Assembly: GCF_001857965.1 (NCBI RefSeq)
Contig: NZ_CP017774.1
Span: 186,001-250,000, forward strand
DNA: 64,000 nucleotides
Source of the DNA: Flavobacterium commune
GTDB lineage: Bacteria > Bacteroidota > Bacteroidia > Flavobacteriales > Flavobacteriaceae
Direction: 5' to 3'
In this document: one piece after another, positions 59,731 to 64,000 of the stretch
How positions within the stretch are numbered: the stretch's first letter is position 1
Layout: each line of letters starts with the position of its first letter
Notes under the pieces: generated by a model
What the model was told of the DNA's origin: nothing
Database searches by the model: none
What the model saw: the letters and a program-made list of their open reading frames with translations, nothing else
Made by a program: the position numbers and the translations under genes

Positions 59731-59775
59731 ATCTGTGATAATCTGTGATAATCTGTGATAATCTGTGATAATCTG
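59731..59775. repeat. 10-bp tandem repeat
   Basis: Four perfect copies of ATCTGTGATA followed by a partial ATCTG that continues into ATCTGCGGA. Confidence 0.9.
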
Positions 59776-61207: not shown

Positions 61208-61252
61208 TATTATTTTTCTTATTTTTGGAATGCTTTAAAAAAACAAGTAGCG

Positions 61253-61290
61253 ACAACACAAAAAAACGCAATACGTTTTTTTGTGTTGTT
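61253..61290 (+). terminator. Terminator-like hairpin after the integrase
   Basis: Perfect 16-base arms ACAACACAAAAAAACG (61253-61268) and CGTTTTTTTGTGTTGT (61274-61289) around a five-base loop, 45 bases after the stop codon. Such a structure would uncouple integrase and cassette transcription. Confidence 0.75.
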
Positions 61291-61360
61291 AAAAACATAA
61301 AACACTAACAATAAGACTTTTAAATACAATCACAATCTTTAGAGTTGCGTATATTTATGA

Positions 61361-61370
61361 GTTAGCAGTT
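61361..61370 (+). other. Putative attI site (start of the cassette array)
   Basis: GTTAGCAGTT at 61361-61370 is the exact reverse complement of AACTGCTAAC (61897-61906), the left end of the first terminal palindrome. By analogy with other integrons, recombination would occur after G61361. Confidence 0.7.
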
Positions 61371-61395
61371 ATTTTACGTGAACGACAACCAAAAA

Positions 61396-61857
61396 ATGAA
61401 AAAATCAACCAAAATTTTCTTTTTAATACTTCTAATTTTAATAATTGGAATTTTCATTCATCCACAGAAAGTAATTTATGAAGCAAATATTGAAGGAAAA
61501 ATAGTTGACGAAAATAATAAGCCCGTTAACAATGCAACAGTTTACAGAATTGAAAAAGAATATTACATAAATGAGGAAATTGGCTCGAATGAATCAAGAG
61601 ATTTAAGAACTGAAAGTGTCGAAACAGACAAAAATGGAAACTTTAAGTTTTATGAAAAATCAAGAATCGATTGGTTTCATACTCCATTAGATTTGCCTAT
61701 TGCCTATTGTTATGCAGAATTTGAAATTGAGAAAAATGGATATGAATTTTACAAAACAAAGTTTGGCGAGTTTGAACAATACAGAATTGAAAATTGTTAC
61801 GCTTGTGAAAAAGTAATATTTAGGCCAATTATTACTTTGAAAAGTCTAAAAAAGTAA
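61396..61857 (+). CDS. Cassette 1: membrane-anchored protein with carboxypeptidase-regulatory-like domain
   Basis: A 153-residue protein. The ATG at 61396 is preferred to a GTG at 61378. A hydrophobic N-terminal helix (FFLILLILIIGIFI, residues about 8-21) serves as signal or anchor; no lipobox is visible. Residues 30-95 (YEANIEGKIVDENNKPVNNA) resemble a carboxypeptidase-regulatory-like beta domain. The C-terminal part has a pair of cysteines (NCYACEKV). Function unknown. The gene starts 35 bases after the recombination point and ends 39 bases before the terminal palindrome, filling the cassette. Confidence 0.7.
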   Translation: MKKSTKIFFLILLILIIGIFIHPQKVIYEANIEGKIVDENNKPVNNATVYRIEKEYYINEEIGSNESRDLRTESVETDKNGNFKFYEKSRIDWFHTPLDLPIAYCYAEFEIEKNGYEFYKTKFGEFEQYRIENCYACEKVIFRPIITLKSLKK

Positions 61858-61896
61858 CTAAAAATAAAATTTAAAACAGAACTGAAAAATAAAAAC

Positions 61897-62032
61897 AACT
61901 GCTAACAGCCGTTTGGCGAGATTGGGGTTTTAGGCTAAATGGAAAGTTAGTTTTGTATTTGGAAAATTTGTGTTTAACCGAAAAATCTCGCATCTTTATT
62001 CCCCAACCTCGCCAAGCGCCAGAACGTTATAG
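61897..62032 (+). other. attC-like site 1
   Basis: A 136-base imperfect palindrome: R'' AACTGCTAAC at 61897, inner arms GGCGAGATTGGGG (61915-61927) and CCCCAACCTCGCC (62001-62013, one mismatch), and R' GTTATAG at 62026-62032. The unpaired spacer has about 73 bases. Layout matches long attC sites such as Vibrio repeats. Confidence 0.8.
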
Positions 62033-62070
62033 GCTATGGTAGGACGACCCAACAAAATTGAGAACAAACA

Positions 62071-62745
62071 ATGAATAAAGACTTTTTCATAAAACAACTT
62101 GACGACATTTTGAGTGATTTTAATAAAATAAAATCAAAGGCTCAATATGACGACTTATCTGGAAATGTGACCATTGAGGAAATATCATCTGTATTGACAA
62201 AAGCCAAAGCTGCAATTGCTCGTATTGTAGGTGACAACTCAGAATATTATAAAGACACAGAAGCAACGTTGAAACGAACAAATATTCACGAAGGAAATAA
62301 ATTGAGACACATTGCAGGAACTGTTACTGCGTTAAAAAGTGACCTACAAAATGACTACCTCAAATCTTTCAGTAATATTGTTCAATCAGAGGTCTTTTCC
62401 GACTATTTAGAAATGGCAGACCATTTATTAACTGAGGGTTATAAAGACCCCGCAGCTGTTTTAATTGGTTCAACTTTAGAAGTTCATTTAAGGGAACTTT
62501 GTATTTCAAACAACATTGACGTTGAAGTAACAAATAATAAAGGAAATAAAAGCCCCAAAAAAGCTGACCTAATGAATGCTGATTTAGCCAAAGCAGGTAT
62601 TTATTCGTCTGCTTACCAAAAACAAATTGTTGCTTGGCTAGACCTACGAAATAAAGCTGCTCACGGAAAATATCATGAATATAAGACAGAAGAAGTGTCA
62701 TTAATGCTACAAGGCATTAGACAATTTATACTAACGACAAAGTAA
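62071..62745 (+). CDS. Cassette 2: HEPN-like domain protein
   Basis: A 224-residue helical protein. The C-terminal region (about 110-224) resembles the HEPN superfamily (DUF4145-like): AAVLIGSTLEVHLRELC, then DLRNKAAHGKYHEY, where R193-x4-H198 is the HEPN ribonuclease motif Rx4-6H. The N-terminal half is a separate helical domain. HEPN proteins often act as RNases in toxin-antitoxin or phage-defence systems, so a defensive role is possible but inferred. The stop codon is immediately followed by the R'' box of its cassette. Confidence 0.7.
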   Translation: MNKDFFIKQLDDILSDFNKIKSKAQYDDLSGNVTIEEISSVLTKAKAAIARIVGDNSEYYKDTEATLKRTNIHEGNKLRHIAGTVTALKSDLQNDYLKSFSNIVQSEVFSDYLEMADHLLTEGYKDPAAVLIGSTLEVHLRELCISNNIDVEVTNNKGNKSPKKADLMNADLAKAGIYSSAYQKQIVAWLDLRNKAAHGKYHEYKTEEVSLMLQGIRQFILTTK

Positions 62746-62885
62746 CCACAGCCTATAACACGGGTTTTGCGTCAGGCGGGCTGATGTGCAAACTTGAAGC
62801 TTTGTGCTTTTAATGAACTTTAGTAATAAATTTAAACTTTGTGCTTCGTAAACCCGCCCGAACGCAAAGCCCGAAAACGTTATGC
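62746..62885 (+). other. attC-like site 2
   Basis: A 140-base imperfect palindrome: R'' CCACAGCCTATAAC (62746-62759), left arm CGGGTTTTGCGTCAGGCGGG (62761-62780), right arm with CCCGCCCG and CGCAAAGCCCG (62853-62873) containing one extra base, and R' GTTATGC (62879-62885). The single unpaired base is like the extrahelical bases that set strand choice in attC. Confidence 0.82.
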
Positions 62886-62906
62886 CTCAGTTTAAAAGAA
62901 CCGAAA

Positions 62907-63389
62907 ATGGAAAACATACACGAATTAATTGAGTACAATCTTAAATTTATAAAAAACAAAACTAACTTTAGAATAAGACGACTTGAGTTAAAAAATTTAG
63001 AAGGAAATACGTTGCCCACAAACGATTGTATCTCTTTACATAGAATATTAATAGAAAAGAATCTTTTGTTTGAAAATGAACATAAAGATTTATTTTTAAC
63101 TGGACTTGCAGAAGAAATAATATTAAACGGAGGTTGGATAAAACATTTAGAATTAGAAAAACTGAAATCAGAAAAAGCAGAATTTAAAGATGTTTTAGAA
63201 ATCGAAAATCTAAAACTACAAAAAGAAAATTCTGAATACACTAAAACTTTACGCCAAAAAGAAGCTGAAATCCGAAACCTAACTAGGGATAATTTGAGGC
63301 TTAATAATTGGGATATTAGATTTAGATGGGTAATTGCTATAATAACATTTTTAATTGGATTCATAACTAAATATTTTATTGACAACTAA
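62907..63389 (+). CDS. Cassette 3: coiled-coil protein with C-terminal membrane helix
   Basis: A 160-residue protein. The ATG at 62907 is used because an upstream in-frame start (62841) lies in the previous attC-like site, outside this cassette. Residues about 80-135 form a coiled coil rich in E, K and L (LELEKLKSEKAEFKDVLEIE), and the C-terminus is a single hydrophobic helix (WVIAIITFLIGFITKYF, about 140-156), so it is probably tail-anchored. I do not recognise a family. The stop lies about 200 bases before the R'' box, leaving room for a possible antisense small gene. Confidence 0.65.
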   Translation: MENIHELIEYNLKFIKNKTNFRIRRLELKNLEGNTLPTNDCISLHRILIEKNLLFENEHKDLFLTGLAEEIILNGGWIKHLELEKLKSEKAEFKDVLEIENLKLQKENSEYTKTLRQKEAEIRNLTRDNLRLNNWDIRFRWVIAIITFLIGFITKYFIDN

Positions 63390-63519
63390 CAAGGTATTTT
63401 ATCAAAGCTAATGTTCCGACTATCAAAAAGGAATAGACTAGGAATTGAGCAACTTTACTTAAAATATATTCTATCAAATAAAACGTATCAGAACTAAAAA
63501 AAGCTTTTATTTTAGACAT
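63376..63519 (-). CDS. Possible small membrane protein, antisense in cassette 3
   Basis: A 47-residue frame on the minus strand: MSKIKAFFSSDTFYLIEYIL, then a hydrophobic segment (FLVYSFLIVGTLALIKYLV) and stop. Its 3' end overlaps the end of the cassette 3 gene by 14 bases. The composition is that of a real small membrane protein, filling an otherwise empty part of the cassette. No convincing promoter or binding site is visible, so it may be fortuitous. Small membrane toxins are known in integron cassettes. Confidence 0.35.
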   Translation of the reverse strand: MSKIKAFFSSDTFYLIEYILSKVAQFLVYSFLIVGTLALIKYLVSCQ

Positions 63520-63595
63520 AATAAAAAATAATTAACTACTTCCGACTTAAACGGTGCGGAAGTTTGACCGAAAATTGGAATAAATAAAAAACCGA

Positions 63596-63724
63596 AGGCA
63601 TAACAGCTGTCTGTGGCTATTGTGGAGTTTAGTGGAATTACCGTTTCGCAATCATATTTCTGCAAAGCAGAAACTACTCAGGTTACGAACTTCCACAACA
63701 GCCACAGGCAGCGGGACGTTATGT
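63596..63724 (+). other. attC-like site 3
   Basis: A 129-base imperfect palindrome: R'' AGGCATAAC (63596-63604), inner arms CTGTGGCTATTGTGG (63611-63625) and CCACAACAGCCACAG (63693-63707, one mismatch), small internal hairpin TTTCTGC-AAA-GCAGAAA (63657-63673), and R' GTTATGT (63718-63724). Confidence 0.8.
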
Positions 63725-63746
63725 GTAAGCTTAAAAAGACAGACCA

Positions 63747-64000
63747 ATGAATTGTTACGTATGCGACATAGAAATTACAGCCGACAATGAAACGGACGAA
63801 CATATCCTTATCAATGCAGCTGGTGGACGACTTAAATCGAAAGAGTTAATTTGCAGTAAATGCAATTCTGACTTCGGAGAAAGCATTGACGGAATTTTAG
63901 CCAAACAACTTAATAATTTGGCAAATATGCTTATGGTAAAAAGACACCGAGGTGAACCGCAGCCAATTATTGGCAACAAGAAATCTACAGGTGAAAAATA
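63747..64000 (+). CDS. Cassette 4: HNH-endonuclease-like protein (3' end outside window)
   Basis: At least 84 residues, running off the right edge. It reads MNCYVCDIEITADNETDEHI, then LINAAGGRLKSKELICSKCNSDFG. The two CxxC pairs (C3/C6 and C36/C39), together with EHI and the GGRL...LICSKCN layout, match a subgroup of zinc-containing HNH endonucleases. It begins 28 bases after the recombination point of cassette 4. HNH proteins may be nucleases in defence or restriction, but catalytic residues beyond the window cannot be checked. Confidence 0.75.
   Translation, partial: MNCYVCDIEITADNETDEHILINAAGGRLKSKELICSKCNSDFGESIDGILAKQLNNLANMLMVKRHRGEPQPIIGNKKSTGEK

Follow-up and report, generated by a model that had tools for sequence, protein, structure and literature searches.

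The 64,000 bases of Flavobacterium commune analysed here (contig NZ_CP017774.1, positions 186,001 to 250,000; hereafter the window) end in what is most probably an integron-type platform, consisting of a tyrosine recombinase, an attI-like junction and an array of five cassettes whose sites, of about 120 bases each, are predicted to form hairpins. The cassettes are likely to be excised and inserted singly at a G|TT crossover by this recombinase, and we assign the interpretation as a whole a probability of roughly 0.88. The system is integron-like by every comparison made, yet it falls outside the IntI family by the defining feature of that family. A distinct integron-type system had been raised as a possibility in the original prediction from the window alone, and this proposal is now supported by additional sites past the end of the window, by cassettes that occur elsewhere with other neighbours, by the presence of the sites across a whole bacterial class and by a recombinase that is not an IntI.

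Four crossover points of the G|TT type lie within the window, at G61361|TTAGCAG, G62026|TTATAGG, G62879|TTATGCC and G63718|TTATGTG, and agree to the base with those first proposed. The original prediction had described three complete cassettes and the start of a fourth, and had recommended reading the DNA beyond position 64,000 for more sites. The genome is a single contig of 3.85 Mb (label G000, in which the window is G000:C1:186001-250000), and the DNA past the window holds sites 4 and 5 and two more points, at 65510 and 66502 in window numbering, which complete the fourth cassette and add a fifth. The array ends at 66502, after which chromosomal genes resume, beginning with one that resembles MazG. 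Detection of the sites relied on a custom stem finder, run at a score of 24 on a 19-kb stretch around the array and on four shuffled copies of it, which replaced an earlier palindrome scan whose stricter arm had led to three unrelated places and missed the array. The finder returned all five sites on the forward strand, one extra forward-strand match (24.1) overlapping the 3' end of the recombinase gene and no match on the reverse strand of the 19-kb stretch; the shuffled copies gave 0, 0, 0 and 1 matches, and at a score of 28 sites 1-3 alone were left. The prediction of one palindrome per cassette was borne out, and its size, given as 129-140 bases, is corrected to 116-122 bases from R'' to R' (the mode across the genus is 122) or 137-143 bases with the outer boxes included.

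In all five cassettes the start is the reverse complement of the cassette's own end box at 9-11 of 12 positions, as against 4-8 positions for the start of the next cassette. We examined this signature genus-wide using 233 sites from 29 of 40 same-genus loci, a set from which L055 was excluded because its best match is a second recombinase family, and which was assembled with a finder that did not select for own-end complementarity. The own-end match was 7.07 of 9 positions (200 cassettes), whereas boxes of the same integrated site agreed at 3.74 positions (n=233) and randomly paired ones at 3.35. Own-end complementarity implies that a site is whole only in the circular cassette, as in integrons.

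Alignment of 69 of the 73 listed sites showed that all 17 inner pairs vary on both sides in some rows while 93.5% of cells are paired, and that 84.4% of the whole structure is paired versus 28-41% when partners are slid, although part of this pairing is built in because the aligned sites had been chosen by stem score. A single base separates the outer and inner stems on the 5' side, and five bases do so on the 3' side. An A-C mismatch, corresponding to a T-G wobble in the bottom strand, occupies one fixed position in 67 of the 69 sites. In IntI-type integrons the bottom strand is selected by extrahelical bases of the attC stem, whereas here 57 of the 69 sites have arms without an inserted base; nonetheless, when each cassette's own end and start are joined, the predicted fold of the bottom strand is the more stable one in 198 of 225 sites. 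Fixed mismatches may set strand choice in place of extrahelical bases. At the core site, compared with GTTRRRY, GTT is found in 233/233 sites (the finder required it), the next base is a purine in 225 and the one after that in 123. Rfam contained no match to the array. A search with an attC covariance model had also been suggested, and a model made from the 69 aligned sites in place of the published attC model (R1, whose training set includes sites 1-3 and excludes sites 4 and 5) does find sites both genome-wide and class-wide, detecting the five array sites in the 3.85-Mb genome at E 4.2e-31 to 1.9e-16.

On comparison of 29 loci, an attI-like junction adjoins the recombinase. The first crossover lies 89-155 bases past the recombinase stop in 27 of the 29 leaders and at 204 and 222 bases in the remaining two, with AG preceding the crossover in 27 and TATAWACNAG in 18; the window's own sequence at this point, TATATTTATGAG, is a variant of the latter. 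The motif TAnnTTTG, a promoter element of Bacteroidota, faces the cassettes in 23 of these leaders, as compared with 2.6 expected from shuffles and 5 on the opposite strand, and at motif level a common promoter facing the array is predicted. By eye, many leaders also contain a short arm in several copies, repeated or inverted, whose sequence varies between species and matches within one leader.

The recombinase, of 350 amino acids, comprises an extra N-terminal part of about 75 residues, a SAM-like core-binding domain (79-159) and a catalytic domain, in which R208, K233/K235, H297, R300, H323 and Y332 match the known catalytic set. Its score of 201.2 bits against the integron integrase family TIGR02249 is below the cut-off of 265, as are its scores of 178, 179 and 203 bits against XerC, XerD and XerA (cut-offs 335, 330 and 220), XerA being both the best family match and the best fold match (Foldseek 9.1e-16). 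Alignment to IntI4 (2a3v) breaks where IntI4 has 65 residues and the recombinase 22. Two catalytic motifs stand 58-59 residues apart in 22 of 22 measurable window-type loci, as against 100 in 25 of 25 measurable IntI loci and in IntI1, where measurable excludes 5 of the 30 IntI loci and the remaining window-type loci for want of the exact motif. By these alignments the IntI-specific additional (I2) domain, of about 41 residues, is missing from the recombinase. This domain was reportedly tied to IntI activity by Messier and Roy (2001), a paper among the references of PMC2426708. Trees of 60 and 52 rows place the IntI rows in one group (support 100/99 and 100/100) with the window type outside it, in a clade (94/95) that takes in long forms of about 580 residues and short forms of 280; the XerC/XerD-type proteins of the same genome branch apart from the recombinase, and long-branch warnings accompany both trees, neither of which fixes the deeper branching order. 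Its score, the missing insertion and its position outside the IntI clade thus uphold the view of the recombinase as something other than a standard IntI. An AlphaFold model (mean predicted local distance difference test score 82.3, predicted template modelling score 0.52), whose closest structures are XerA (5hxy) and IntI4 (2a3v), supports the recombinase fold only. The long form, with an N-terminal extension of about 300 residues, precedes arrays of the same sites (L111, L112 and L113, sites downstream), and the 280-residue forms have sites upstream on the opposite strand, a divergent layout, in all three loci examined (L120, L121 and L123).

We then considered how closely the sites are linked to this type of recombinase. 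Of 80 named recombinase loci, 43 have sites detected by model R1, 118 in all: 77 are same-strand sites downstream (22 loci), 40 are opposite-strand sites upstream (20 loci) and one, a weak partial match, is in another locus. No locus of the 43 mixes both layouts, and the array runs away from the recombinase for 117 of the 118 sites (42 loci). This search is a fairer test of polarity than the finder scan of same-genus loci, in which 29 of 40 loci have a downstream same-strand site (233 in total), opposite-strand matches number 7 downstream and 5 upstream, and upstream same-strand sites number 0, a weak result given that only 0.2-3 kb was covered upstream versus up to about 17 kb downstream. One genome, G782, carries 27 sites across 57 kb in a single orientation. 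Across the class, which we take to be Bacteroidia from the names of the 80 loci and general taxonomy, at least one site was found in 211 of 295 genomes (124 of 155 genera) and a recombinase match at E 1e-50 in 144 (88 genera); both were present in 137 genomes, the recombinase only in 7, sites only in 74 and neither in 77, counts that are uncorrected for relatedness and, with 10 candidates scored per genome, are lower bounds for the sites.

Two layouts were seen, one with the recombinase directed into the array and one with it directed away (L230-L268 versus L190-L223; L120, L121, L123, L064 and L066). In the tree of 52 rows five divergent loci group together with G128, taken as the genome of L240, while the 280-residue forms are divergent too, and the gene therefore seems to have turned more than once. 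Relatives with sites also occur in records titled Kapaibacterium, Ignavibacteria and Phycisphaerales (L220, L221 and L254), outside the class, which may reflect either transfer or mis-binned metagenome-assembled genomes. On the Chryseobacterium plasmid NZ_CP041688.1 (L124) a relative that is 46.8% identical is followed by six same-strand sites, in a region that also holds an IS110 transposase and a group II intron reverse transcriptase; annotation pipelines name this relative 'site-specific tyrosine recombinase/integron integrase'.

Comparison of arrays indicates that cassettes have been exchanged between genomes. The window's array was searched in 199 genus genomes, from a collection with one genome per species and with 2 candidates scored per genome. 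Cassette 3 has a 95% identical copy in G025 that runs from point to point, identity stopping at G|TT on both sides; a 95% match to cassette 5 in G150 starts at the left point and extends into the site; and relatives of cassette 1 (82-89%) are found at attI-like junctions in G017, G052 and G198 and inside the array in G067. At each place the neighbours of the copies are different. G198 and G118 share a cassette of 594 bases at 100% identity. The match stops 3 bases past the predicted points on both sides (shared ACG and TTA), and this is the only near-identical pair between genomes among 226 cassettes compared. Three within-genome pairs (715, 447 and 481 bases), also at 100%, end at G|TT points, one of them sharing 28 bases of the preceding site. 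The chromosomal flanks of the window, with MFS-like and MazG-like genes, were not found beside the other fetched recombinase loci (mostly <20 kb), and the platform therefore appears to have no one fixed chromosomal place.

The proposed mechanism is that two attC-like sites would recombine at G|TT and release the intervening cassette as a circle, a form of excision suggested because cassettes recur elsewhere with G|TT ends. In the circle the two end boxes of the cassette would meet to form the outer stem of one complete attC, for which the complementarity is seen and the folding predicted. The bottom strand of this hairpin is the likely substrate because its predicted fold is more stable than that of the top strand, and the recombinase would probably join it to the attI-like junction, so placing the newest cassette beside the predicted array-facing promoter. 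The enzyme would act without the IntI-specific additional domain, and its N-terminal part may hold the attI repeats. The sequences themselves show the boundaries, the complementarity, the linkage and the recurrence of cassettes; from these comparisons we infer excision, circles, folding of the bottom strand in the cell, promoter activity and the N-terminal role.

Several observations weigh against an integron-type platform driven by this recombinase. The evidence is all comparative, with recombination deduced from it; the inner pairing is partly a product of site selection; and the recombinase lacks a domain tied to IntI activity, according to the available part of PMC4792948. No site was found in 37 of the 80 named loci, some of which are on short contigs. 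Similarly, 7 of the 40 same-genus loci have no finder match in >16 kb downstream; R1 located sites on the other side in two of these (L064 and L066) and, farther off, one in L040, and L062 is apparently the same record as L240, a locus with its sites on the other side. L057, L058 and L063 still have no site under R1. Five further sites are present elsewhere in the F. commune genome, away from the platform, and the 74 class genomes with sites and no recombinase match at E 1e-50 count in the same direction.

These 74 genomes would also be expected if the array were a set of sites without its own integrase, moved by a classical IntI that is elsewhere or has been lost, with the neighbouring recombinase a bystander, an explanation we consider very improbable. 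Clusters of attC sites lacking IntI are a known category, as set out in the accessible text of PMC9024848. However, classical IntI above the family cut-off, found in 105 of 395 genomes of the phylum, is absent from the F. commune genome and occurs in G233 alone among 98 genomes of its class (a hand count). No R1 site was present in 30 classical IntI loci of up to about 4 kb or in five other recombinase loci of the F. commune genome, whereas 8 of 29 window-type loci of like size hold one. R1 sites were found in 7 of 20 genomes with a classical IntI. Two of the seven, G494 and G293, have sites immediately downstream of a window-type relative, on contigs other than that of the IntI (G494 has two more sites elsewhere), which argues against a bystander role; on the other side, these are the only two of the seven with a close relative beside sites. 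Three others (G510, G240 and G244) combine IntI and sites with only distant recombinases (about 31%), G510 having one weak site (E 3e-6) 3 kb from a broken IntI piece, and in G287 and G536 no clear link of the sites to a window-type recombinase was seen. The single polarity of 117 of 118 sites relative to the recombinase is likewise difficult to reconcile with a bystander.

Alternatively, the folded sites could be recombined by the host XerC/XerD, as in integrative phages that exploit Xer, leaving the neighbouring recombinase a helper or unrelated role. For CTX-phi, the portion of PMC4792948 at hand describes Xer acting on a phage stem with no I2-like domain, and the F. commune genome encodes two XerC/XerD-like proteins (named from their size and place in the tree), but polar linkage of the sites to one recombinase clade across many genera makes us regard this as barely credible. 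Least of all do we credit the possibility that the palindromes are ordinary repeats around genes in an unstable region (terminators, or elements resembling repetitive extragenic palindromes or miniature inverted-repeat transposable elements) with an unrelated recombinase nearby. Single copies of the site elsewhere in the genome would suit such repeats, whereas own-end complementarity, identity breakpoints at G|TT, polarity relative to the recombinase and the lack of an Rfam match would not.

The coordinates of the integron-type platform are collected in Table 1. The original prediction put one or two genes in each cassette; the open frames give one each in cassettes 1-3 and two in cassette 4. 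The frame of cassette 1 has weak carboxypeptidase-regulatory-like matches, under the Pfam cut-offs; the protein of cassette 2 has a HEPN-like C-terminus, also under the cut-off; and that of cassette 3 has no Pfam match and, by eye, a coiled coil and one membrane stretch. Genus-wide, 194 of 208 cassettes have their longest open frame in the forward direction (18 of 226 had no frame of 50 codons and were excluded). Short tandem copies of aatctgtgat lie at 59739-59775, upstream of the recombinase gene. The off-platform sites of the genome are at G000:C1:1753911-1754735 (L136), 3076086 (L137), 1227409 (L138) and 1170835 (L139), and one cassette with own-end complementarity is delimited by the sites at 1753911 and 1754594.

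Table 1. Features of the putative integron-type platform (window numbering)
Feature	Position	Strand	Basis or remarks
Tyrosine recombinase, 350 amino acids	60155..61207	+	Open frame, profile matches
Promoter-like motif TAnnTTTG, TATTTTTG; predicted common cassette promoter facing cassettes	61220..61227	+	
attI-like leader, crossover after G61361 (GCGTATATTTATGAG|TTAGCAG)	61208..61361	+	Leader comparison
Cassette 1, 665 bases; open frame 61378-61857	61362..62026	+	Boundaries at G|TT
attC-like site 1	61895..62037	+	Covariance model E 4.2e-31
Cassette 2, 853 bases; gene 62071-62745	62027..62879	+	Boundaries at G|TT
attC-like site 2	62748..62890	+	Covariance model E 4.3e-19
Cassette 3, 839 bases; gene 62907-63389	62880..63718	+	Boundaries at G|TT
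attC-like site 3	63593..63729	+	Covariance model E 4.2e-19
Cassette 4, 1792 bases	63719..64000 in window, continues to 65510	+	HNH endonuclease-like gene from 63747, then open frame of 168 amino acids
Cassette 5, 992 bases	Beyond window, ends 66502	+	
attC-like sites 4 and 5	Beyond window	+	Covariance model E 1.5e-17 and 1.9e-16

A separate element of about 2.4 kb, with a second tyrosine recombinase (34-35% identical and reversed relative to the array), was observed inside the R'' box of attC-like sites at L055 and L054 (G138), L116, L117, L118, L119, L114 and L040. Its 5' junction reads ...[TC]AACA|G[AC]TAGAGTTTCG and its 3' junction ...GTGCTACCGAAGGTTTAGTT|CAACA, the latter in all loci with small variations. 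In G138 six copies, about 95% identical, adjoin different sites, and two ends of a variant are present as well. The element looks like one that targets attC-like sites.

Comparison with known systems places the F. commune platform close to classical integrons in its one-orientation array, G|TT crossover, sequence-variable foldable sites, own-end complementarity, attI-like junction, array-facing promoter motif, bottom-strand folding bias and interspecies exchange of cassettes. It differs from them in a recombinase without the IntI additional domain (58-59 versus 100 residues), with an extra N-terminal part and with 201 bits against a cut-off of 265, in site arms without inserted bases (57/69) and with a fixed A-C mismatch (67/69), and in a recombinase gene that, in the window, points into the array. 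The catalytic fold and the spacing without insertion are shared with XerC/XerD and archaeal XerA, but the recombinase is below every Xer cut-off, is tied to cassette arrays and branches apart from the XerC/XerD-type proteins of its own genome. Phages of the CTX-phi type similarly use a stem without an I2-like domain, to judge from the passages available of PMC4792948, but have neither a recombinase of their own nor a cassette array. An 'integron-like' subgroup of tyrosine recombinases has been described for which the seen part of PMC8138268 ties the insertion to integron function and describes no arrays for such members. On balance, we lean slightly towards a second integron lineage apart from IntI, with a Xer-like recombinase, folded sites, no I2 domain and strand polarity derived from fixed mismatch or wobble pairs, which would be either a convergent invention or a relic from before I2, spread through Bacteroidia and carried on a plasmid.

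In classical integrons extrahelical bases set strand choice (PMC4792948, in part). The additional domain has been treated as the mark of IntI, Xer being without it, and a genome survey picked integrons by that domain, both in the consulted extract of PMC2426708, which also lists the Bacteroidetes/Chlorobi group among those with integrons; Bacteroidota are likewise among the phyla with integrons in what was accessible of PMC8618304 and PMC9668308. A 2022 survey placed one complete integron in Bacteroidetes, in Salinibacter, only cassette-less integrases having been known there earlier, according to the text available from PMC9024848. Our literature search, with partial access to sources and with most subscription journals and all bioRxiv preprints outside its scope, found no report of an integron whose integrase lacks the additional domain or of such arrays in Flavobacterium.

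If our interpretation is true, at least one cassette-type site that definitions based on the IntI domain would overlook is present in 124 of the 155 genera sampled from a whole class, and the cassettes, mostly without assigned function (14 of 20 sampled cassette proteins have no Pfam match), form a large unread gene pool. The system would also make testable the need for an I2 domain and for extrahelical bases in folded-strand recombination, as well as an origin of integrons from Xer-like enzymes. Finally, this is likely to be a second kind of gene-capturing integron, one that would escape searches built around the classical integrase.

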